Shown here: positions 1 to 28,575 of the stretch, piece after piece
Layout of the letters: each line of letters begins with the position of its first letter
Position numbering within the stretch: position 1 is the first letter of the stretch
IMG/VR virus record: IMGVR_UViG_3300021963_000468
Location: 1 to 29,940 of that record
Source of the DNA: a virus
Reading direction: 5' to 3' (one strand)
DNA length: 29,940 nt
The notes under the pieces: model-generated
Told to the model about the DNA's origin: nothing
The model's input: the letters and a program-made list of their open reading frames with translations, nothing else
Databases searched by the model: none
Translations under genes and position numbers: made by a program

Positions 1-5767
<5,767 letters not shown>

Positions 5768-18624: not shown

Positions 18625-19509
18625 TTAATTTTCTTCAGCAAGTTTACTAAAATATGCCATATCATCATCTTCAGAATCATCTTTAAATGGAGAATCTTCT
18701 GCAACAGGTTTAGGTGCAGGCTTTGCTTTGGCTTGTTCTACAGTTGTGCGTGGTGCTTCACCATTAAGACCAAGAACTTTATCTAAGCGTTGCTTCAAAG
18801 CATCATACGACTTGAATTCACCATCTTTTAAGAGTTCCTGTAGAGAGTGTTCAGACTTCCAAATCTTCTCTAGTTCTTCATCGTCATTCAGCAAAGCAGC
18901 AGGCGATTCGAATTCAGATTTATCATAATTCTGATAACCTTCAACTTTACGGATCTTTAACTTAAAGTTGGCACCTTTCCACATATCAAATGGGTTAATT
19001 GCTTGTTCATCTTCAAATTGTGGATTCATGGCTTCTGAAATCTTATCAAAAATCTTCTTGCCAAACTTAAACAAAAATACTTTACCTTCATTTTCTTTAT
19101 TTGAAGGATCAGATACGATATAAATGTTTGCAATGTAATTTAGTTTACGTTTTTGCTTACGGACAATATCTTTATTTGCTTCAATACCAGAATTCCATAA
19201 TGAGGAATTATGTTCACAAACGGGACATTGTTGATTGAGTGTGGTTAAACAATTATCAATTAACCATCCACCTGGACCTTGGAATCCGTGTGAGAAAATC
19301 TTCACCCATGGTAACGCATCATCACCATCAACTGCTGGTGCTGGGAGGAAACGAATCGTTGCCATGCCATTGCCAGATTTATCTACGGCTGGGCGCCAGT
19401 AGTTATCTGATTTATCGTTGCCTTCGGATGAGGTATTAAGTGCCTCGATTGCTTTAGATAGTTTGTCGAGGTTGCCAGATTGGCGTTTGAGGTTCGCAAA
19501 TGAACTCAT
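18625..19509 (-). CDS. gp32: Single-stranded DNA-binding protein gp32
   Basis: A 294-aa protein with the full T4 gp32 plan. The N-terminus has the LAST-like basic motif LKRQSGN for cooperative binding. The core zinc site is H74, C87, C95, C98 (KIFSHGF, IDNCLTT, QQCPVCEHN), with the same 13- and 3-residue spacings as T4 H64/C77/C87/C90. RPAVDKSGNGMATIRFLPAP is also typical. The Ala/Pro/Lys linker leads to an acidic tail (DSEDDDMAYFSKLAEEN), the protein-interaction domain. It coats ssDNA in replication, recombination and repair. AAGGAAG lies upstream of the ATG. The leader has a strong sigma70-like promoter and a tandem 11-bp repeat, consistent with early expression and possible autogenous control as in T4. 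Confidence 0.97.
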   Translation of the reverse strand: MSSFANLKRQSGNLDKLSKAIEALNTSSEGNDKSDNYWRPAVDKSGNGMATIRFLPAPAVDGDDALPWVKIFSHGFQGPGGWLIDNCLTTLNQQCPVCEHNSSLWNSGIEANKDIVRKQKRKLNYIANIYIVSDPSNKENEGKVFLFKFGKKIFDKISEAMNPQFEDEQAINPFDMWKGANFKLKIRKVEGYQNYDKSEFESPAALLNDDEELEKIWKSEHSLQELLKDGEFKSYDALKQRLDKVLGLNGEAPRTTVEQAKAKPAPKPVAEDSPFKDDSEDDDMAYFSKLAEEN

Positions 19510-19606: not shown

Positions 19607-20088
19607 GTGTACATCTTCAAAATACCGATGGTAGTAATGGCGTCCGTGTGAAGTATACCAATACCACCTTCAACTCGCCATTGGTCGATGTTCTGTGGTG
19701 TATCATCAATCAATAGTGAATTCGAATTAGAAAAATCTCTCTTAAATCTTTTACCTGGAACCAAGTTCACAGGAAACTCAATGTTTTGGTTATTCAACCA
19801 TTCAATCTTTTGTTCCCGAATCTCTGCATCCCGTTTCTCAGAAGAAGTGGAAGAAAGAATCTCTGTTGGTACCTTTAATGACCTGAGATAGTTAATTAAC
19901 TCGATAGCATCAGGCATCAAGTTCAATGTAGCAAACTGCCTTTCAGCAATGAACATGGTGAAGAACTTGTCAAAGGTTTTATAGGTGTCGGCCTCTTTCG
20001 GTTCAATTTTGTACAATTCCTTGTATCGTTTATTGAAATCGGCAATCACACCATCCATGTCCAAGTAAATCTTGGTAATCTTATGCAT
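19603..20088 (-). CDS. HAD-superfamily hydrolase, 5'(3')-deoxyribonucleotidase-like
   Basis: A 161-aa protein. Motif I is YLDMDGVIADFN, with nucleophile D10 and acid/base D12. A helical cap follows (KTFDKFFTMFIAERQFATLN). Motif II is EILSSTSS, with K/R residues nearby (EKRDAEIREQKIEWL), and the acidic motif is LLIDDTPQNI. This is the plan of small nucleotidases and phosphatases of the HAD family. A likely job is trimming deoxynucleotides or related phosphate esters for phage nucleotide balance; the substrate is not visible. It overlaps gp59 by 8 bp and its stop codon contains part of the gp32 promoter, so it is in the gp33-gp59 operon. Confidence 0.85.
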   Translation of the reverse strand: MHKITKIYLDMDGVIADFNKRYKELYKIEPKEADTYKTFDKFFTMFIAERQFATLNLMPDAIELINYLRSLKVPTEILSSTSSEKRDAEIREQKIEWLNNQNIEFPVNLVPGKRFKRDFSNSNSLLIDDTPQNIDQWRVEGGIGILHTDAITTIGILKMYT

Positions 20089-20686
20089 ATTCTTTAATCT
20101 TTTCTTTCAAAATTTGTTTGAACTTTTCTTTATCATAATGTAGAAATGGTTTATATTTCACACATTTAGTTTTAAAACTAGGCCAAACAATATCATCATA
20201 TATTTCTTTTTCCCACATCGGGAAAAAATTCATCAGGTCGTTCAAAATGATAAGTGTTTCAAGTGTTATATCTCCTTGTGTAGTATACTGCATTAACTTA
20301 GGAAATTCATTGTTTCTTACCACTAATAAATCATTTGGATTTTCTACCTTATCCAATAATACAATTATATCATTTTCAAAGGTATATGTCAAGCTTTGTT
20401 GAGTTTTTTGCCACTTGGTATAATTCTCGTCACCATCCTGAAGTAAATCACCTACCCAATCACCTTTGCCTTGTATAAAATTGGCAATATAAAAGTTCTT
20501 GAGTTCTTCTAAATCATATTTACGAGATAGTTTATAGAATTGGTATTTTGATTTGTTGGTAGTAAATGTTTGCTTAGATACATTTGTTTTTCCGTTGTAT
20601 CTAAAGTAATCATAAGATTCGGAAGTAAAATGTAACTTCAAAGCATTCCATAAAGCATATGCGGCAAAACCGGTATTCTCCGTCAT
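20081..20686 (-). CDS. gp59: DNA helicase loader gp59
   Basis: A 201-aa protein similar in length to T4 gp59 (217 aa). Corresponding segments include YALWNALKLHFT, YDYFRYNGKTNVSKQTF, then KSKYQFYKLSRKYDLEELKN (T4 RDKYFFQKLSEKYKLKEL), FYIANFIQGKGDWVGDL (T4 FISNLVANQDAWIGDI) and QGDITLETLIILNDLMNF (T4 SNIISFETFILLDSFLNI). It loads the gp41 helicase onto gp32-coated forks. The gene lies between gp33 and the HAD gene and close to its partner gp32. The start follows gp33's stop by three bases, with no Shine-Dalgarno sequence in the AT-rich junction, so translational coupling is likely. Confidence 0.9.
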   Translation of the reverse strand: MTENTGFAAYALWNALKLHFTSESYDYFRYNGKTNVSKQTFTTNKSKYQFYKLSRKYDLEELKNFYIANFIQGKGDWVGDLLQDGDENYTKWQKTQQSLTYTFENDIIVLLDKVENPNDLLVVRNNEFPKLMQYTTQGDITLETLIILNDLMNFFPMWEKEIYDDIVWPSFKTKCVKYKPFLHYDKEKFKQILKEKIKEYA

Positions 20687-20689
20687 AAT

Positions 20690-20911
20690 TTAAATTGGCA
20701 ATCTGGATGTTTTCTTCAACATATTATTATCTTGAGCCTCTTCTTTAATCTTTGATTTAAGTGCGGGTGAGATTAATGTTGCGGCCACTTCAATTTCCAA
20801 ACCAGTTTCTTTGCAATGGTGGCAGATAGCGTCCATATAACCTAAACGATTTTCTATCACCAAATTTTCAATCATCATACTAAATTTTTTAATTTCTTCA
20901 CGATTAGGCAT
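20690..20911 (-). CDS. gp33: Late transcription coactivator gp33
   Basis: A 73-aa protein, MPNREEIKKFSMMIENLVIE with RLGYMDAICHHCKETGLEIE and VAATLISPALKSKIKEEAQD, ending TSRLPI. This matches the short gp33 form of T4-like marine phages. gp33 bridges RNA polymerase, the gp55 sigma factor and the gp45 clamp to activate late promoters. Its presence fits the TATAAATA boxes in this window. Order gp33-gp59 matches T4, where genes 59 and 33 are neighbours. The start is 3 bp after the hydrolase stop in the same AATTTAAATTATG junction that precedes gp59. Confidence 0.8.
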   Translation of the reverse strand: MPNREEIKKFSMMIENLVIENRLGYMDAICHHCKETGLEIEVAATLISPALKSKIKEEAQDNNMLKKTSRLPI

Positions 20912-20914
20912 AAT

Positions 20915-21457
20915 TTAAATTCTACTGTAAAATATATGATTACCTATTTTCGTTACAACCTTTTGTTTATTCCAGCCAGGATTTACATAAACTGCATGGT
21001 AATACAATGCGTTTGTTTCTGCTATTTTATCATGTAAAACTGAAACTGTCAATGCTCTTTTTGCAATTAAATGAGATTCTTCCCATCTATACCGATCATG
21101 AATGTGTACCATTTCTTTGACCATACAAGTCCATGAAAATTGACACACGGTTCTTAAATTTTGATCCGTTGTTTTCTGATAAACAACTGAACATATATTT
21201 CGTGGAAAAATGCCACTATTAACACGATTCATTGTGACCTGTGCTACGGCTAATTTGCCTTCATAAGATTCACCAGCAGATTCATAATAAATATTTTTAG
21301 CAAGGCATTCAATTTGTTTTAGATAATCTGCCGATACTTGTTTCTGTGTTGCATTTGTAATAAACTCTCTCGATAGAGTTGGTGCTGTATATACTATTGT
21401 TAATACTGCTAATACTACTGCTAATGTGTTAAACTTCTGTGTGTTAAATTTAAACAT
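20915..21457 (-). CDS. SleB-type cell wall hydrolase with N-terminal membrane/signal segment
   Basis: A 180-aa protein. Residues 10-27 form a hydrophobic segment (NTLAVVLAVLTIVYTAP) after a short basic N-terminus, acting as signal or signal-anchor. The catalytic domain contains CLAKNIYYESAGESYEGKLA with likely catalytic E59, then VAQVTMNRVNSGIFPRNICS, QFSWTC and ALYYHAVYVNPGW with KIGNHIFY. These are hallmarks of the SleB/CwlJ hydrolase_2 family, which cleaves peptidoglycan. A signal-anchored wall hydrolase in a phage could be the endolysin (SAR-like) or act on spore-less host walls late in infection. AAGGAAG precedes the ATG. No adjacent canonical holin is evident; the two tiny membrane proteins nearby are possible partners. 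Confidence 0.85.
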   Translation of the reverse strand: MFKFNTQKFNTLAVVLAVLTIVYTAPTLSREFITNATQKQVSADYLKQIECLAKNIYYESAGESYEGKLAVAQVTMNRVNSGIFPRNICSVVYQKTTDQNLRTVCQFSWTCMVKEMVHIHDRYRWEESHLIAKRALTVSVLHDKIAETNALYYHAVYVNPGWNKQKVVTKIGNHIFYSRI

Positions 21458-21510: not shown

Positions 21511-21789
21511 TTACGAATTTGTTTTCGATTTTATTTTAACTTCAGGTTGTGGAGTGGTTTGAGAAACGAATTGATTGAGAGCTTCCGCTTTCTTTACAAT
21601 TTCATCTTCTGTGGGGAATGCCGGTAAGGCGGGGTAGTCAGGTGATGTTGTACCAGCAATTTTAGCTGCATCGACCTGTGTATGCCATTGCTGTTGTAGA
21701 GCATCACGTTTTGTGTGATAGTCATCAGTTAACATATCTTTGGCCATTTTTAAGAGTTCTAGCCGAATCTCATAAGGTGTCATACTCAT
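21511..21789 (-). CDS. Small conserved T4-like phage protein, unknown function
   Basis: A 92-aa protein starting MSMTPYEIRLELLKMAKDML, then DDYHTKRDALQQQWHTQVDA, a Pro-rich linker (SPDYPALPAFPTEDE) and VKKAEALNQFVSQTTPQP. The MTPYEIRLELLKMAKDML to QQWHTQVD pattern is one I associate with T4-like cyanophages, but no function is known to me. Mostly helical and soluble, no membrane segment. AAGGAG lies six bases before the first ATG. It directly follows the tmRNA region on the same strand and may share its transcript. Confidence 0.8.
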   Translation of the reverse strand: MSMTPYEIRLELLKMAKDMLTDDYHTKRDALQQQWHTQVDAAKIAGTTSPDYPALPAFPTEDEIVKKAEALNQFVSQTTPQPEVKIKSKTNS

Positions 21790-21852
21790 TTACTTCTCCT
21801 TGTGTGTGTTTATGTGTATTACCAGCGGTTTGTGTGATGCTGGTGATTTATT

Positions 21853-22136
21853 TATCCAGGTGATTCTGTTGCTAAGTTCACCTGGCGAAACTCCGCTTAC
21901 CTATTAGGCAGCAAGTGCATACTTATCGTTTGCGTTTAATTTAATTAGTGATTACGCCTTCTCTGGCGATTCTCCATTGTTCTAATTATTGCCATGTCGA
22001 TTCTAAAACACCCCCATCAGAAGTATATTGCCACTTTTGTGTTTGCTACCGAAAACTCGGTTCGTCAATATACTTTTGGTGGAGGTGGTGGGAATCGCAC
22101 CCACGTCCACAACAACTTTCAAACAACTTCTACGAA
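21853..22136 (-). ncRNA. ssrA: Circularly permuted two-piece tmRNA (tag ANDKYALAA)
   Basis: Read on the minus strand, the acceptor piece comes first (about 22136-22077). It ends in GTGGAC, a 5-bp T-arm (GTGGG/CCCAC), CACCTCC and encoded ACCA. A 61-nt spacer follows, then the coding piece begins at 22015 with GGGGGTG and the tmRNA-typical GAATCGACATGG. GGGGGTG pairs with CACCTCC over 7 bp with a G-U at the third pair, the alanyl-tRNA synthetase identity element. The tag frame GCA AAC GAT AAG TAT GCA CTT GCT GCC TAA (21933-21904) encodes ANDKYALAA. CAATAATT of the coding piece pairs with AGTTGTTG of the acceptor piece (P2). Hairpins CGCC/GGCG before and CCAGGTGA/TCACCTGG after the tag are pseudoknot-like. 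Outer ends are approximate. Confidence 0.93.
22016..22076 (-). other. Internal transcribed spacer of permuted tmRNA with processing stem
   Basis: Between the CCA end of the acceptor piece and the 5' G of the coding piece lie 61 nt. AAGTATATTG (22075-22066) and CAATATACTT (22030-22021) form a perfect 10-bp stem. An inner ACCGA/TCGGT hairpin sits within it. The stem would hold the two mature ends together until removed by tRNA-type processing (RNase P at the 5' end, 3' trimming to CCA). Processing is inferred from known permuted tmRNAs. Confidence 0.85.
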
Positions 22137-22247
22137 TTAGTTTAATACAAAAAGTATTGTTAATACACCTACAGCAAATGCACAGGCGCCCATGTAGAAA
22201 GCAAAACTTCTTACTTTATATTCTTTTACACAATCTTTGTTAGGCAT
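22137..22247 (-). CDS. Small membrane protein (36 aa)
   Basis: MPNKDCVKEYKVRSFAFYMG followed by ACAFAVGVLTILFVLN: a basic N-terminus and one membrane-spanning helix. I chose the ATG at 22247 because AAGGA lies eight bases upstream and it overlaps the stop of the preceding tiny gene (TAATG). A longer frame up to 22361 exists but lacks a ribosome binding site. The stop codon abuts the tmRNA acceptor piece. Function unknown; a holin-like or membrane-regulatory role is conceivable given the wall hydrolase nearby, but this is not shown. Confidence 0.65.
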   Translation of the reverse strand: MPNKDCVKEYKVRSFAFYMGACAFAVGVLTILFVLN

Positions 22248-22372
22248 TACAGTATCCTTTCTAGTAACCAAATAACAAAAAGAAAACTTAAACCACCAGC
22301 CAAAAATTTTAAAGCCCCGTACTGTCTTTCGTTCTGCTCGGGAGTGCAGAGTTTTTTCCAATATTTGTTCAT
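22247..22372 (-). CDS. Small membrane protein (41 aa)
   Basis: MNKYWKKLCTPEQNERQYGA followed by LKFLAGGLSFLFVIWLLERIL: a polar N-terminus and a C-terminal membrane helix. AGGA lies five bases before the ATG and the stop codon overlaps the next ATG in a TAATG junction, which supports a real coupled pair. A sigma70-like promoter lies immediately upstream, so close that the leader would be only a few bases. No family is recognised. Confidence 0.6.
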   Translation of the reverse strand: MNKYWKKLCTPEQNERQYGALKFLAGGLSFLFVIWLLERIL

Positions 22373-22380
22373 AGTGTCCT

Positions 22381-22409
22381 ATTATAAGTGTTTATACTTA
22401 TATAGGCAA
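22381..22409 (-). promoter_or_regulatory. Sigma70-like promoter with embedded inverted repeat
   Basis: The minus strand has TTGCCT (22404-22409), a 17-bp spacer and a perfect TATAAT (22381-22386). TATAAGT/ACTTATA (22383-22402) form a 7-bp inverted repeat overlapping spacer and -10, possibly an operator. It would transcribe the two tiny membrane genes and the tmRNA. Confidence 0.7.
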
Positions 22410-22418
22410 CCAGCTTAA

Positions 22419-23078
22419 TTAATATTTACCACTTTTCTCATAATATGAAATGGCATTGACTAGGCCTGTGATATGGTCCTCGGTCTTTTGTTTGAATACG
22501 ATAGGACTCGAATCCTCAACGGCCATGACGATAACCAAATCATGGATAGGTTGACCAATCAACTCCTCATACATCAAGGCGTAGGCAGATGTTTGCCAGA
22601 AGTAATCTTCAATGTCCTCATGGCTCTTAATTTTTTTGGATGTTTTAAAATCAATTACCGAAAGCACACCATCGAACTCAGCAATACAATCCACTCGGCC
22701 TGCCATCTTTAATTGTGTGGACCATAATGCTTGTTCTTGGTAATGAATATTGTTAATACGATTTAAATGCGGTTTGATTGATAAAAACATTTCATGTGCA
22801 TCGGGCATAATATTACCTAATGATTCATTGTTTAAATATCGTTCACACAATGTATGAACATTTGTACCACGAGAAGTTGCTTTTTTGGTAATGGCATTGG
22901 CAACATCTTCACCCACTTTGTTGCGCCATGCCTGAAAAATATGTTTCTTTTGAGCACCAATGACTGTGGTGACCGATGGTAATTTTGTACCATCAGGTAG
23001 TTTATAAAACCGTTTACCATCAGGAAATGTTTCTGATGGTAGGTCTTGTAATACTTTTGGTGGGCAGTAATTAAACAT
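22419..23078 (-). CDS. PD-(D/E)XK exonuclease (RecB/MGME1-like)
   Basis: A 219-aa protein starting MFNYCPPKVLQDLPSETFPD. Motifs are LPSVTTVIGA, then SRGTNVHTLCERYLN (helical motif I region), QEQALWSTQLKMAGRVDCIA with active-site D130, and VLSVIDFKTSKK with D143 and K145, then YFWQTSAYALMYEEL. This is the RecB-type exonuclease plan related to mitochondrial MGME1 and is common in T4-like marine phages. Likely used in DNA degradation, recombination or end processing. The ATG at 23078 overlaps the preceding stop (TAATG) with AGGA eight bases before it; ATGs at 23084 and 23099 are inside the upstream gene. Confidence 0.87.
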   Translation of the reverse strand: MFNYCPPKVLQDLPSETFPDGKRFYKLPDGTKLPSVTTVIGAQKKHIFQAWRNKVGEDVANAITKKATSRGTNVHTLCERYLNNESLGNIMPDAHEMFLSIKPHLNRINNIHYQEQALWSTQLKMAGRVDCIAEFDGVLSVIDFKTSKKIKSHEDIEDYFWQTSAYALMYEELIGQPIHDLVIVMAVEDSSPIVFKQKTEDHITGLVNAISYYEKSGKY

Positions 23079-23218
23079 TACCATTTTCCTATAGGGCATT
23101 TTACAAAAGGTAAATTTACTTTAATTGGCATATAACAATGGCATTGTGTGCATATTTTTATTTTAACTTTATAATTCTCACAAGTATTGCATATGTCTAA
23201 TTTTGTATTTGCATTCAT
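23078..23218 (-). CDS. Small Cys-rich zinc-ribbon-like protein (46 aa)
   Basis: MNANTKLDICNTCENYKVKI followed by KICTQCHCYMPIKVNLPFVK and CPIGKW. Cysteines at 10, 13, 23, 26, 28 and 41 give CxxC...CxxCxC...C, with the ending CPIGKW. This pattern of a tiny CxxC/CxxC protein ending CP-x-x-KW recurs in T4-like phages. It presumably binds zinc. Its stop overlaps the exonuclease start and its ATG lies one base after the upstream stop, so it is a firm member of the operon despite its size. Function unknown. Confidence 0.8.
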   Translation of the reverse strand: MNANTKLDICNTCENYKVKIKICTQCHCYMPIKVNLPFVKCPIGKW

Positions 23219-23219
23219 T

Positions 23220-24002
23220 TTACGTTACGTTATAGTTGGTTACATATTTCTCTTTAATAGCTTCAAAGAAGTCAATATCTTCTTGTGTTAGCTCCGCTTC
23301 TTCTATATCTTGCCTAAATTTTCTGGTGAAATCTTCTAACTGTTGAAATTCACCTTCATACTTAAAAAACTTTGTTATTTTTTTAGTATCGTAAGCATCC
23401 ATTATAATATGATATCTAGGCTCATCGGAATCATTTCTAATTTGATGCCACAAATTCACCCAAACAATGTATGCTGATCCATCGGCCGGCATATGTAAAT
23501 TTTTTCCTTGACATATATGAACACACTTTTTGTTTGTCCATAATGGTATGTGTATTCTGGCCATATAATCTGTTGTTTCAGCATCTTTGTGCACCAAGCT
23601 CTTACAATGAGGCTGTAAACAAGTTATTCTTACTCGCCTTGGTTCAAATCCCAAATCTTTCAATTTATCTACAACCTTTTTAATTTCTCCGACACAAGCT
23701 TGAGTTGGTCTATCGTGCTCCAAACTGTGAGCAATATTAAAATGTTTGTACGACTTCATAATCAATTCTCTTGTCGGTAGAAAATTTTCTAATTTTAATC
23801 CATGTTCATGCTGAACAACTTCCCAACCATCTTTCCAATCACCACGCCTACTCAAAATACTCCAACCACCAAACCCATGATAATTTTGTGTTTCAAATTC
23901 TTCACCTTGAACAACTTGATCACCTAGAGGAAAAACACTTTCTTCTACTTCTTTTCTTAATTTTTCAATATCAAATTGAATATCTAATTTTTCATACCAC
24001 AT
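23220..24002 (-). CDS. Aspartyl/asparaginyl beta-hydroxylase-like 2OG-Fe(II) oxygenase
   Basis: A 260-aa protein. VRITCLQPHCKSLVHKDAET carries an HxD pair (H138, D140), followed by ARIHIPLWTNKK, SAYIVWVNLWHQIRND with the distal histidine H186, and EPRYHIIMD with R196, a likely 2-oxoglutarate contact. That order, HxD...H...R, is the jelly-roll dioxygenase plan, and the RIHIPLWTN/HxxRNxxxEPRYH text is like aspartyl beta-hydroxylase relatives. The C-terminal about 60 residues are helical and acidic. Overlaps the preceding oxygenase gene by 11 bp. The substrate could be a protein side chain or a small molecule. Confidence 0.78.
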   Translation of the reverse strand: MWYEKLDIQFDIEKLRKEVEESVFPLGDQVVQGEEFETQNYHGFGGWSILSRRGDWKDGWEVVQHEHGLKLENFLPTRELIMKSYKHFNIAHSLEHDRPTQACVGEIKKVVDKLKDLGFEPRRVRITCLQPHCKSLVHKDAETTDYMARIHIPLWTNKKCVHICQGKNLHMPADGSAYIVWVNLWHQIRNDSDEPRYHIIMDAYDTKKITKFFKYEGEFQQLEDFTRKFRQDIEEAELTQEDIDFFEAIKEKYVTNYNVT

Positions 24003-24627
24003 TTTTTTGTTTTTCTTTCATTTCTATAAAATTGTTCAATAGATTAGTTGAAAATGTTTGCATATCGGTAGACAATGAAATTCTCATATTTTTAGATTTA
24101 TTAACATCTACAGAATGTAAAACATATGATGGAAAAAATACAAGTTTTCCTGGTTTCGGTATTATTTTTTTAAATTTAGCTCCATTAACATTTTTATAAA
24201 CCTCTTTGTCCCAATCTACACCACCACGGGGATCAATTAATAATAGGTCACCACAATCATCATCTGTTTGTATATAGTATGTTGCTGTTATTTTACTACC
24301 TCCATGATCATGTATTGCCATGGATTGTCCAGGTAAACTATAGTTAACCCAACCTCTTGTGTGATGAAATTCATATTCATCATAATTTTTTGCAACATAA
24401 TCATAAGTAAGTTCTGTCACCATTTTAATTATATAATCATTTAATGATTTTACATAAGGTGTATTCATCACCCATATATTAGAATCTTTGATATTTTTAA
24501 TTTTTTCATCTGTGTAAAAATATTTCAATTCACTTAATAAATTATCATTAAATTTTTCATCAAAATCTGTTTGTATTTCCCACACCGGTGTCACCCACCA
24601 ATCATTACGAATTATATTCATAGACAT
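23992..24627 (-). CDS. 2OG-Fe(II) oxygenase family protein
   Basis: A 211-aa protein. WWVTPVWEIQTDF begins it; the iron-binding strand is QSMAIHDHGGSKITATYYIQ (H106, H108 region), then GDLLLIDPRGG, PKPGKLVFFPSYVLHSVDV (H171) and MRISLSTDMQ (R182). This fits the putative 2OG-Fe(II) oxygenase family whose members show HxH...G-x-L-x-x-FPS-x-x-H...R-x-S. It is a paralogue of the gene at 25136-25861. Overlaps neighbours on both sides by about 10 bp. Substrate unknown; in T4-like marine phages such genes are frequent and uncharacterised. Confidence 0.82.
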   Translation of the reverse strand: MSMNIIRNDWWVTPVWEIQTDFDEKFNDNLLSELKYFYTDEKIKNIKDSNIWVMNTPYVKSLNDYIIKMVTELTYDYVAKNYDEYEFHHTRGWVNYSLPGQSMAIHDHGGSKITATYYIQTDDDCGDLLLIDPRGGVDWDKEVYKNVNGAKFKKIIPKPGKLVFFPSYVLHSVDVNKSKNMRISLSTDMQTFSTNLLNNFIEMKEKQKNVV

Positions 24628-25157
24628 CCAGTTTCTTTTAACATCTCACACACCGATTCATAATTATGTTTTCTTGTGCCTAAAGTTACGGCTTTTCTAA
24701 AAGGTTCTTCTTTATCCGATTCGACACTATGAATTTTCTTAACATTTAATACCCAAACTTCCATTGGTTGTGCCACGAAACTACCAACTTCTTTTAATTG
24801 CTCTTTTTTGTATATGAATCCATTTGTTTGATTTTTTATTTGAAATATCTGCAAATCATCTACCAAAGGTTCATAATATATCGTTTTACAGTTATCAGTT
24901 TCAATGTAAAAATTAATTGTGGTTAATATATCACTATCTGTATGTGGTGGTATATTTCGATTGATGGTCATAACAGTTAAATAAAAATCTTCCCAATATT
25001 TTTTAGGTAAAATCTTATACATTATTTCGGGTTCAGGTGACCATATCTTTTTATAATCTATACCTTTATTATCAACACCCGTAAACGTATTCAACCCCTG
25101 TGTAACGGCATATATGGGTTTAGAAAACTCATAATTTAACTTTGTGAACATTTCCAT
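24618..25157 (-). CDS. 2OG-Fe(II) oxygenase-like protein (HTD type)
   Basis: A 179-aa protein with YLTVMTINRNIPPHTDSDIL and TTINFYIETDN, where H72-T-D74 would bind iron. Next come FVAQPMEVWVLNVKKIHSVE, with distal H143, and EPFRKAVTLG, with R154 as a possible co-substrate contact. The HxD...H...R order and spacing fit a compact double-stranded beta-helix oxygenase, but overall similarity to the neighbours is low. It overlaps the flanking oxygenase genes by 22 and 10 bp. Activity is not proven; a catalytically divergent cupin is the alternative. Confidence 0.65.
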   Translation of the reverse strand: MEMFTKLNYEFSKPIYAVTQGLNTFTGVDNKGIDYKKIWSPEPEIMYKILPKKYWEDFYLTVMTINRNIPPHTDSDILTTINFYIETDNCKTIYYEPLVDDLQIFQIKNQTNGFIYKKEQLKEVGSFVAQPMEVWVLNVKKIHSVESDKEEPFRKAVTLGTRKHNYESVCEMLKETGCL

Positions 25158-25861
25158 TCTTTAATTTTTTTCATTCGACTGGCCCAACTTTTTAATATTA
25201 CAGTATTATTGGTGTTTTTGTCAACCACCTTTCGTAAATCGGTAGATAAAGATATACGTAAATCATTTGATTTATTCTCCGTTACACCATGAAGAACATA
25301 TGATGGTGTAAAGACCAATTTACCTTCAATAGGTTTGATTCTTCGTTCTTTCACTACAGGCGTACCGGTTAAAGTGGTGTTTTTCCAATCAATTGCGTTG
25401 GAACTGTCAAATAGTACCAACTCTCCACATCCTTCTGGTGCTTGTATGTAATATGTGGCCGCAATAGCGGATTCTGTATGGCCATGTACTTCTAAACCTT
25501 CTCCCGGTTCATGCACATTAACCCAGCCAAAGAAGTGCTCACAACCTTTAAGGTTTAACATTCTGATTTCTGGAATTTGTTGGGTTATTGTTTTTGTAAC
25601 AATATCAATAATTTCTTGTTTGATAATGTTTAGATTGGGCTTGTCATAATCCCATATGCTGTCTTTTGGTTTTTTATCTTGGCCAGTGGCGATGCCATAA
25701 CCTATACTATAAATTTCGTCTAGTAGTTTTTTATTGAATTCTGCATTAAATTTTGTTTGAACTTCCCATATTGGAGATTTCCAAAATAAGTTTTGCGCAT
25801 TTTGATACCAGTGAAACTTTTCACGGTCATTCAGTTGTTCTATTTGATTTCCACTCATCAT
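25136..25861 (-). CDS. 2OG-Fe(II) oxygenase family protein
   Basis: A 241-aa paralogue of the 23992-24627 gene. SPIWEVQTKFNAEFNKKLLD aligns with its WVTPVWEIQTDFDEKFNDNL. The core has FFGWVNVHEPGEGLEVHGHT with H126-G-H128, AATYYIQAPEGCGELVLFDS, EGKLVFTPSYVLHGVTENKS (H191) and LRISLSTDLR (R202). It therefore belongs to the same HxH-type putative 2OG-Fe(II) oxygenase family. The start overlaps the preceding gene by 35 bp, and no later Met precedes the conserved region. Natural substrate unknown. Confidence 0.82.
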   Translation of the reverse strand: MMSGNQIEQLNDREKFHWYQNAQNLFWKSPIWEVQTKFNAEFNKKLLDEIYSIGYGIATGQDKKPKDSIWDYDKPNLNIIKQEIIDIVTKTITQQIPEIRMLNLKGCEHFFGWVNVHEPGEGLEVHGHTESAIAATYYIQAPEGCGELVLFDSSNAIDWKNTTLTGTPVVKERRIKPIEGKLVFTPSYVLHGVTENKSNDLRISLSTDLRKVVDKNTNNTVILKSWASRMKKIKEWKCSQS

Positions 25862-26153
25862 ATGCCATAATCAAAGGTTGTGCTTGCTCACGATTAATTC
25901 GAACTTCTGTACTCATTTCCGAAGCTGTGTTTGCTGTCTGCCATGGTGTGCCTTTGATGTGGTCCAATATCGGGTGATTGCCAGCATTTAATAATTCGGA
26001 CAACACATTCACATGAGTTGTTAACATGGTAAAGACGTTTGCACGTTGTTCTTCAGGTAAATTTAGTATTGCATTGAAAAAAATATTGTTGAAGTAGTAA
26101 TCAACATACTCATGCAATAAATCTCTCTCGATGACGATTTCATTTTCATTCAT
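25827..26153 (-). CDS. Uncharacterised small protein
   Basis: A 108-aa protein, MNENEIVIERDLLHEYVDYY with FFNAILNLPEEQRANVFTML, THVNVLSELLNAGNHPILDH and TPWQTANTASEMSTEVRINR. It looks soluble and helical, with no cysteine, membrane segment or motif that I recognise. It overlaps the upstream Cys-rich gene by 8 bp and the downstream oxygenase by 35 bp, so it is almost certainly expressed with them. Confidence 0.75.
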   Translation of the reverse strand: MNENEIVIERDLLHEYVDYYFNNIFFNAILNLPEEQRANVFTMLTTHVNVLSELLNAGNHPILDHIKGTPWQTANTASEMSTEVRINREQAQPLIMAYDEWKSNRTTE

Positions 26154-27093
26154 TGTATTTTTTCCTTATGAATAATTTATTATTAAATAATTTAACTATT
26201 TTAGAATAAATTTCTGCTGAGTAATATGTTCCCGCAAATGTAATCCAAATAAAATATACGGTCAATAAACCAACTGGTTTATTTTTATTTGGTAACTTAC
26301 CTACCAAACGGCTAATTGGTCGACCAACACGCATCAATATACGGCCAATATCATTATCTCTATTCACAATATTCATAATATAAGCCATATGTTGCGACCA
26401 AGGAGTTGCTATACGGTGAGCCCACTTAATAAATTTTTGTTTTTCAGCTTTTTTACGTTCATCTTTGGACATCCAAAGCATAAAGTCCGGAGATTTGCCT
26501 TCCATGCCATCAACAATAACTTGAGCCCAACGAATATAACCAGCATAAACTTCTGGATCATTTTCTCTCAACCAATTACCATATTTTTGGTCAGCATAAA
26601 AAATATCATGGGGCATCATACCGAGTTGATATAATTTATGACAAATAATTTTTGAACAATTACAAGCTTGAGCATAACATTGAAAACTTGTACAATTATA
26701 TGTTGGTGGCGGTTGTTGATTACAATTTCCTGTTTGTAACCATGATTGGCTATCACAATTTGCACAATTAATAGCTCCACAATTAGCACACACATGGCAA
26801 TTTTGACTTTGATCACCGCATCCACAATTACAATTTGATGGGTCAACTACAGGACAATTTCCTGAAGCGCAGTTTTCACAGCAATTATTAATTCCCGTGC
26901 CGTTGCAATTTCCTGCAGTATTTTTTTGAAAATAACTTAGGCCATAAAATCCAGCCATATTAGGAGTACCTGGTCGTATAGACGGCAACACTAAATTGTT
27001 TAAAAAATTTAAATCACTAGAATATGTTGATGATTGACCAATTTCTTGATTAATTTGCGATACGGATATTGGTCCAGATGATGGTAATGTCAT
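26146..27093 (-). CDS. Cys-rich putative virion protein with C-terminal membrane helix
   Basis: A 315-aa protein. The N-terminus MTLPSSGPISVSQINQEIGQ is typical of structural proteins in T4-like phages, and GFYGLS follows. Residues 63-151 hold 19 cysteines and many Asn-Cys pairs (GNC, SNCNCGC, ANCGAINCANC, YNC); no cysteine occurs elsewhere. A charged helical middle (SKDERKKAEKQKFIKWAH) precedes a hydrophobic helix near the end (VGLLTVYFIWITFAGTYY). An exact late promoter lies just upstream, supporting late, virion-type expression. The adjacent upstream gene is a radical SAM/SPASM enzyme, so the Cys region is a candidate for metal clusters, disulfides or peptide modification. Function unknown. 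Confidence 0.8.
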   Translation of the reverse strand: MTLPSSGPISVSQINQEIGQSSTYSSDLNFLNNLVLPSIRPGTPNMAGFYGLSYFQKNTAGNCNGTGINNCCENCASGNCPVVDPSNCNCGCGDQSQNCHVCANCGAINCANCDSQSWLQTGNCNQQPPPTYNCTSFQCYAQACNCSKIICHKLYQLGMMPHDIFYADQKYGNWLRENDPEVYAGYIRWAQVIVDGMEGKSPDFMLWMSKDERKKAEKQKFIKWAHRIATPWSQHMAYIMNIVNRDNDIGRILMRVGRPISRLVGKLPNKNKPVGLLTVYFIWITFAGTYYSAEIYSKIVKLFNNKLFIRKKYNE

Positions 27094-27118
27094 TTTTACG
27101 TCCTAATCTTTATTATTC

Positions 27119-27128
27119 AGTATTTATA
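27119..27128 (-). promoter_or_regulatory. T4-type late promoter TATAAATACT upstream of the Cys-rich gene
   Basis: Exact TATAAATACT on the minus strand, identical over ten bases to the box before gp48. It overlaps the TAA stop of the radical SAM gene and lies about 26 bp before the Cys-rich gene's ATG, which has AGGA upstream. Confidence 0.75.
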
Positions 27129-28575
27129 TTGTTTCTACTTTGGATTTTCCGTAAATTTCGACACCTTCAATCACACCAATCTTCTCACTAATTATTTTGA
27201 TAGGTATAATTTTCTTTTTCAAATCTTCCTTATGTTCGTAAATTGTACCAAAAATATCTTGCCTTTCGAGTGGTAGACCATCACCTTTTATGAGTGTTGG
27301 TATATAACCTGTTATATCCTGTATAGCTAAAACAAAAAATGGTATGTTATCCGAATATGAATTTGCACAAGATATGTCCCAAAATTTTTCATCCAAAAAC
27401 ATACAGGCACCCTTACAAATATGTAGTACAGGACAACCAGAACATTCTTTACGGTTCGACCAATGTGTTGATGATTTAATTGATACATTATCATAATCTT
27501 CTAATGTACCTCCGTGATGCGACTCGCCATTTTTTGACATTTCAAGAGAACTTACGTTTTGGCACGTCATTACATTACCACGCAAATCTACAGCTAAAGC
27601 TTGTTCTTCATCCATGCCACATTTTTGACCTAAAAAATCCGATTTTCGGTGAGCAAGAACACTTTTGGTAAATTGAAACGTTTTTTCTTTTGGAATAGTG
27701 AATCCAATTTTGCCGCCTGTGGAAAATATGTCAGCAAAAGCCGTTCTTCGATATTCAAAATGGTCTTTTTTTGTTAGTAAAGAATTTGAAATTCCTTCTT
27801 CATCGTAAGCATCTACGATACCTCCTTCACCTAGTGTTACAAATTCATCACCAGTTAAATTCACAAACCATTCATAAACTTCTTTACGACTTCTATTTTT
27901 TGCGTTCATCATAGGATTAAAACTTATTACTTTACCCAAACGTTTCATCATTCTATAAAAACCCAATATTCTTTCTTTTTGTTCAGGATCGTCAAACGGA
28001 TCTGGCCCACGAACTGATTGACCAGGTCCATCATGTGAAATGGCCACATCAAAATCATACATCATCAACCAATCAATAATATCATCTGTAAGAATAGATC
28101 CGTTTGTAATAACAGAAAATCTTGGTTTTCTTTCCCAATTCTCAAATTTTTCTGCCAACAATTCTGCTAGTGGTTTCATTGTTTTCCAATAAACAAATGG
28201 TTCACCACCCCAAAATTCTATTTTCAATCCTTTACTTTCATCAAATTCTAAAACTTCTAATTTTTTCATAAAAGCATCAATGTCTTTTTTAGATGTTTCA
28301 GGCATACGTTCAACAAATTTTTGTGAGCAATAATCACAAGAATAATTACAACTTAATCCCATTTGAATTTTAAGTGTTGTGATTAACTTTGATTTCTTTA
28401 AAGGATTGTTTTTATTAAATGCTTTATATGGTTTTGTGTATTCTTTAGGAATTTCAATTGGTTGCGGATATTCATATACGATACCATTGGCGTCCTTTAA
28501 AATATTGCTCATGTTATCATAATAAAATATTTTCTTATCATCTTTTGATTTTTCAGCGTGTATTTCAAATAACAT
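27124..28575 (-). CDS. Radical SAM/SPASM domain protein (peptide or protein maturase-like)
   Basis: A 483-aa protein. QMGLSCNYSCDYCSQKF carries the CX3CX2C iron-sulfur/SAM motif (C76, C80, C83), FWGGEPFVYW the GGEP motif (123-126), and SVITNGS and VAISHDGPG are further barrel strands. The C-terminal SPASM domain is complete: C319-X13-G333-X4-C338, then C378-X2-C381-X5-C387-X3-C391, and C403. SPASM enzymes modify ribosomal peptides or proteins (sulfatase maturases, thioether and other RiPP enzymes). The N-terminal about 60 residues may be a substrate-recognition element. It starts in a TAATG overlap with a small upstream gene and is followed by the Cys-rich gene, a plausible substrate. Enzymes for small molecules are possible too. 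Confidence 0.9.
   Translation of the reverse strand: MLFEIHAEKSKDDKKIFYYDNMSNILKDANGIVYEYPQPIEIPKEYTKPYKAFNKNNPLKKSKLITTLKIQMGLSCNYSCDYCSQKFVERMPETSKKDIDAFMKKLEVLEFDESKGLKIEFWGGEPFVYWKTMKPLAELLAEKFENWERKPRFSVITNGSILTDDIIDWLMMYDFDVAISHDGPGQSVRGPDPFDDPEQKERILGFYRMMKRLGKVISFNPMMNAKNRSRKEVYEWFVNLTGDEFVTLGEGGIVDAYDEEGISNSLLTKKDHFEYRRTAFADIFSTGGKIGFTIPKEKTFQFTKSVLAHRKSDFLGQKCGMDEEQALAVDLRGNVMTCQNVSSLEMSKNGESHHGGTLEDYDNVSIKSSTHWSNRKECSGCPVLHICKGACMFLDEKFWDISCANSYSDNIPFFVLAIQDITGYIPTLIKGDGLPLERQDIFGTIYEHKEDLKKKIIPIKIISEKIGVIEGVEIYGKSKVETI

Follow-up and report, generated by a model that had tools for sequence, protein, structure and literature searches.

Does a T4-type phage carry a tmRNA of its own, and is the gene kept in working order? 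tmRNA is the RNA that frees stalled ribosomes and marks unfinished proteins for destruction. The question is raised by a 29,940-nt stretch of viral DNA (IMG/VR record IMGVR_UViG_3300021963_000468; hereafter, the window), in which the two halves of such a gene appear in reversed order. Judged from its sequence, the gene is probably a working, phage-owned permuted tmRNA. This reading is based on the anatomy of the gene, compensatory pairing, an intact tag frame, a fixed operon position, and a conserved promoter.

Identification and Anatomy of the tmRNA Gene

A complete circularly permuted tmRNA gene was identified on the minus strand of the window at positions 22137-21844 (Table 1). The Rfam model tmRNA_permuted (RF04321) matched the minus strand with 118.8 bits (E value, 6e-23) over its full length (model positions 1-213), and beta_tmRNA (RF01850) and alpha_tmRNA matched with 94.7 and 76.2 bits, respectively; the gathering cut-offs are 47, 84, and 50 bits in the same order. 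Independently, ARAGORN called a permuted tmRNA at 21813-22169 with the tag ANDKYALAA followed by two stops. The covariance models and ARAGORN confirmed what the preliminary description had read from the letters, namely that a tRNA-like 3′ half with encoded CCA precedes the 5′ half, with the CCA ending at 22077 and the 5′ half starting at 22015; the strand, which had not been given, is minus.

From 5′ to 3′, the gene consists of a P2 strand, the T arm, an acceptor strand, CCA, a spacer, GGGGGUG, the second P2 strand, the mRNA-like domain, and a terminal hairpin. The fold of the precursor RNA had a z score of -3.68, and none of 200 shuffles was equally stable. The spacer, whose excision during maturation is expected, folds into a hairpin (AAGUAUAUUG/CAAUAUACUU). 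The loop of the terminal hairpin (CUUA, 21876-21873) could pair with UAAG at 21899-21896, suggesting a possible pseudoknot. A match of the window to mir-1306 (E value, 0.54) was attributed to chance.

Table 1. Features of the permuted tmRNA gene and its neighbors in the window.
Feature	Position	Strand	Evidence or remark
PD-(D/E)XK exonuclease, conserved upstream neighbor	22419..23099	minus	PHROG 298, 1.6e-74; Pfam PDDEXK_1
Sigma70-type promoter TTGCCT-N17-TATAAT, just 3′ of exonuclease stop	22381..22409	minus	10/12 matches
41-aa ORF, one hydrophobic stretch, transcript leader	22247..22372	minus	no PHROG match
36-aa ORF, one hydrophobic stretch	22137..22247	minus	no PHROG match
tRNA-like 3′ half, first in gene	22077..22137	minus	5′ bound putative
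P2b strand of tRNA-like half	22126-22122	minus	
P2 strand of tRNA-like half	22116-22108	minus	
T arm	22104-22088	minus	
Acceptor strand of tRNA-like half	22087-22081	minus	
Discriminator	22080	minus	
Encoded CCA	22079-22077	minus	
Intervening segment (spacer), 61 nt	22016..22076	minus	
5′ half with mRNA-like domain	21844..22015	minus	3′ bound putative
Acceptor strand GGGGGUG of 5′ half	22015-22009	minus	
P2 strand of 5′ half	21996-21988	minus	
P2b strand of 5′ half	21981-21977	minus	
Tag reading frame	21901..21933	minus	resume codon GCA at 21933
Terminal hairpin CCAGGUGA/UCACCUGG	21856..21885	minus	sequence; present in RNA fold
92-aa ORF, next gene downstream of tmRNA	21511..21789	minus	no PHROG or Pfam match
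Cell wall hydrolase	20915..21457	minus	Pfam Hydrolase_2, 2e-24; PHROG endolysin
gp33-type late transcription coactivator	20690..20911	minus	PHROG 254, 5e-19
gp59-type helicase loader	20081..20686	minus	PHROG 269, 6.5e-58
gp32 single-strand DNA binding protein	18625..19509	minus	PHROG 224, 1e-109

Pairing of the Two Halves

Covariation was determined on an alignment in which the two pieces of the tRNA-like domain were joined and the spacer was left out. With 25 distinct tRNA-like domains, the covariation score was 0.327 compared to 0.101 for shuffled alignments, and none of 500 shuffles reached it; sliding the alignment by one column lowered pairing to approximately 45%. The two acceptor strands form a 7-bp stem that includes the alanine identity pair G3-U70, as had been described from the window, and the G-U pair was kept in all 25 genes, while the other pairs covaried. 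Among the relatives, the entire stem has been rebuilt around it (GGGGGUG/CACCUCC, GGGCCUG/CAGGUCC, and GGGCCGG/CCGGUCC). Even in loci L200 and L148, where the acceptor stem is largely replaced, G3-U70 is still present.

A P2 helix extended by AACAA with TTGTT had also been proposed. The helix exists and the extension was right (100% of pairs kept in the relatives, one of them compensatory), but the register given, CAATAATT with AGTTGTTG, was 3 nt out. In that register, only 80% of the helix pairs were kept and the whole structure was 93.9% paired. P2 is instead formed by CAUGGCAAU with GUUGUUGUG, which is also the register of the Rfam model; 99.5% of its nine pairs were kept and six were doubly changed. 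The corrected structure was 99.8% paired across the cells of 25 distinct relatives, and 15 of its 26 pairs showed two-sided changes.

Tag Reading Frame

The tag frame of the window reads GCA AAC GAT AAG TAT GCA CTT GCT GCC TAA TAG, encoding ANDKYALAA. A tag frame in the 5′ half had been noted earlier, and the ARAGORN call gives it a resume codon, a stop, and an AA end. Among 28 distinct genes of the clade, 15 versions of the tag DNA were found, each open to its stop and each ending in AA. Variation was greatest at third codon positions (nine of 19 variable columns), and ANDKYALAA differs from the variant ANDNKYALAA by the loss of one whole codon. Loss of acceptor pairing and tag frame in close relatives had been named as evidence against a tmRNA; both are kept.

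These frames bear on whether the RNA might act as a decoy that occupies SmpB or alanyl-tRNA synthetase (AlaRS) and blocks host trans-translation. Such a role has been proposed for the tmRNA of mycobacteriophage DS6A, which is tRNA-like only (PMC4131195; PMC11915505). A search of 12 related phage records, which are linear, possibly fragmentary, and up to 136 kb long, turned up no SmpB gene, so the phage tmRNA would compete for host SmpB. However, a decoy needs no mRNA-like domain, resume codon, tag frame, or stop, and all of these were intact in 28 of 28 aligned genes, which makes this reading improbable.

Genomic Surroundings and Promoter

PHROG matches to gp32, gp33, gp59, and the exonuclease bear out the earlier placement of the gene in the replication and late-transcription region of a T4-type phage. 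The T4-like genes recognized in the window also include those for baseplate, tail tube, and DNA end protector proteins. The nearest named relatives of the window proteins were cyanophages, with a Pelagibacter phage for one tail protein, at identities of no more than 64%. Along the minus strand, the exonuclease is followed by the promoter, two tiny ORFs, the tmRNA, the 92-aa ORF, the cell wall hydrolase, gp33, and gp59. The start of the 36-aa ORF overlaps the stop of the 41-aa ORF (TAATG), and its own stop abuts the tmRNA.

Of 26 distinct tmRNA loci, 25 have TATAAT with 17-nt spacing no more than 450 nt upstream of the gene, and in four of these both hexamers are perfect. Elsewhere in the tmRNA loci, strict promoter matches occurred about once per 4.2 kb; when six clade loci that lack a tmRNA were checked, one had such a match in the corresponding interval. 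Eight of 60 shuffles gave a promoter as good as that of the window, so this single site is not beyond chance; the promoter argument is drawn from conservation across loci. No match to the T4-type late promoter TATAAATA was found near the tmRNA gene.

An early-type promoter and an operon shared with phage replication and late-transcription genes would also suit a role mainly in counter-defense or host takeover. The tmRNA would then provide ribosome rescue when host toxins cleave mRNA or tmRNA during infection, or it would mark host proteins so that their amino acids can be recycled; the recycling idea has been proposed for phage Melnitz (PMC9004378). Against such a role, the analysis identified neither a defense gene nor a toxin target nor an altered protease signal, and the tag is of the ordinary AND...ALAA type. 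We regard this role as possible but rather unlikely.

Several other genes of the window were noted. Positions 1022-5767 encode a 1581-aa collagen-like repeat protein with many Gly-X-Thr triplets, and 2OG-Fe(II) oxygenase and Asp/Asn hydroxylase-like genes at 23220-25861 might modify it. At 26146-28575, a radical SAM protein adjoins a 315-aa protein whose N-terminal part is rich in cysteine, a possible enzyme/substrate pair.

Distribution and Residence in Related Phages

A gp59 scan yielded 80 viral loci, of which 55 had more than 2.4 kb of upstream DNA and were eligible; the loci are partly redundant, as 10 carry a gp59 identical to that of the window. A permuted tmRNA was found upstream of gp59 in 44 of the 55. 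ARAGORN accounted for 38 of these, all in the same orientation and 0.9-2.4 kb upstream of gp59, Rfam added five, and a relaxed search added L148, which has a 517-nt spacer. The tmRNA appears to be dispensable in some phages, since no gene was detected in 11 of the 55 eligible relatives; no remnant was seen in five tmRNA-less loci at the relaxed threshold.

Pelagibacter phages Mosig and HTVC008M and OM43 phage Melnitz also carry a permuted tmRNA between the exonuclease and gp33, whereas in cyanophage S-ShM2 these two genes overlap and there is no tmRNA. The preliminary description had suggested capture from a host, which is a possible origin. That Mosig, HTVC008M, and Melnitz have the gene in this interval too is a sign of long residence in phages, and the tmRNA is best regarded as an old resident of the group; repeated insertion at a single site is a possible alternative. 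The tmRNA of HTVC008M (L211:3939-4280) lacks an annotation in the GenBank record of that phage (KC465899).

The ssrA gene is a frequent integration site for phages and islands (PMC9004378; PMC11915505), and the tmRNA could in principle be a functionless host fragment left by imprecise recombination. This is highly improbable: no integrase was found among the window proteins searched, the tag frame and promoter are conserved, and the position is kept across phage groups with different hosts. Moreover, the compensatory changes over 25 genes already contradict such a reading.

The preliminary description had called a full-length permuted tmRNA in such a phage unusual. This is half right, as phage permuted tmRNAs have been published and were present in 44 of the 55 relatives tested. 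Their aquatic bias (marine or aquatic phages account for 50 of 53) and the idea of transfer from hosts are also in print (PMC9004378). The window gene is thus a new member of a published kind, which now reaches beyond a few cultured marine phages into a broad group of uncultured T4-like phages.

Two minor observations were made in other loci. Matches to the abiF RNA family exceeded the gathering cut-off at L191:6673-6710 and L200:4884-4920, both loci of related phages. In other viral contigs (L033, L073, and L092), ARAGORN called permuted tmRNAs whose tags are unusually long and atypical, and some of these may be miscalls.

Comparison With Known tmRNAs

The closest counterparts, in Melnitz, Mosig, and HTVC008M, are likewise permuted and lie in the exonuclease-gp33 interval of T4-like, Kyanoviridae-type phages. 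They differ from the window in their tags (GEDNFALAA and ANFNEYALAA in this group versus ANDKYALAA). No glutamine riboswitch was found in the window at gathering cut-offs. The tmRNAs of Mosig and HTVC008M fit alpha_tmRNA best, whereas that of the window fits beta_tmRNA best of the three older Rfam models. This betaproteobacterial model was matched over its full length above the cut-off, as in an Alcaligenes phage tmRNA used for comparison, but several of its pairs are not met by the window.

The window and L133 were fitted best by beta_tmRNA and other clade members by alpha_tmRNA or by none; close relatives with a longer mRNA-like domain matched alpha_tmRNA or none. G at position 55 in the T loop of the window (UGCGAUU) was considered as a phage-only feature. 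When bacterial genomes were scanned for the window T arm, 43 loci were obtained; 41 were called by ARAGORN, all in standard form and none permuted. The idea was rejected, as the scan pattern required TGGACG and this G is also present in the alpha_tmRNA consensus loop (GGCgGUA). Phage-encoded tmRNAs are also known in mycobacteriophages (the Bxz1 group and Wildcat) and Bacillus phage G (PMC4131195), which belong to phage groups unrelated to the window phage.

Proposed Function

The steps by which a working phage tmRNA would act are drawn from established tmRNA knowledge. Host RNA polymerase with sigma70 would transcribe the gene early, and RNase P and tRNA 3′ processing would excise the spacer, leaving two RNA pieces held together by the acceptor stem and P2/P2b. 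Host AlaRS would charge the tmRNA via G3-U70. Host SmpB would be needed, given that no SmpB was found in the 12 phage records searched, and with it the tmRNA would enter ribosomes stalled on cut or stopless mRNAs. There, the tag ANDKYALAA would be added, the ribosome freed, and the tagged protein passed to ClpXP-type proteases. The most likely benefit is that ribosome recycling would be kept up while host mRNAs are destroyed in infection. Selection keeps the structure, tag, promoter, and position of the gene, and it is now reasonable to test whether phages need ribosome rescue of their own.

Modularity and Genes Nested in the Spacer

Each of two tRNA-like types, with P2 CAUGGCAAU or UUAUCAGAU, was found joined to a short mRNA-like domain in some genes and to a long one in others, and T-loop types crossed both. 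Recombination within the gene is the simplest explanation of the four combinations. Mosaicism was also seen around it: between L166 and the window, the exonuclease, hydrolase, and gp33 were 90-94% identical and gp59 was 71% identical.

The 517-nt spacer of L148, a single assembled contig, encodes a 152-aa protein that matches homing endonuclease family phrog_655 (5e-14), with a Pfam HNH domain matched weakly, below the cut-off. This homing-endonuclease-like HNH gene lies wholly within the spacer (L148:2664-3181; IMGVR_UViG_3300025392_000724), and the acceptor stem and tag are intact. A structural search of 2.6 Mb of loci found no other spacer longer than 200 nt, all matches being from the L148 contig, and HNH homologues in 36 related loci lay inside a tmRNA only in this contig. 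The published database (PMC11915505) lists a tRNA gene and a repeat as contents of permuted spacers and reports homing endonuclease genes for the intron form; a limited literature search found no earlier report of a homing endonuclease gene in a permuted spacer.

These nested genes suggest that permutation gives the tmRNA a tolerant insertion site, intron-like in effect. It is a tentative idea, and one we hold to be doubtful, that the tmRNA is a modular mobile cassette whose spacer serves as a landing site for genes, including the homing-endonuclease-like HNH gene, which could spread alleles without harming the RNA. Such HNH-driven spread between phages would account for the reshuffling of T arms and mRNA-like domains. 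Smaller spacer frames were also found: L149 (near 4710) and L022 (near 412), which are different phages, carry a conserved 50-aa spacer ORF, 68% identical over its whole length, and the 142-nt spacer of Melnitz contains an open frame.
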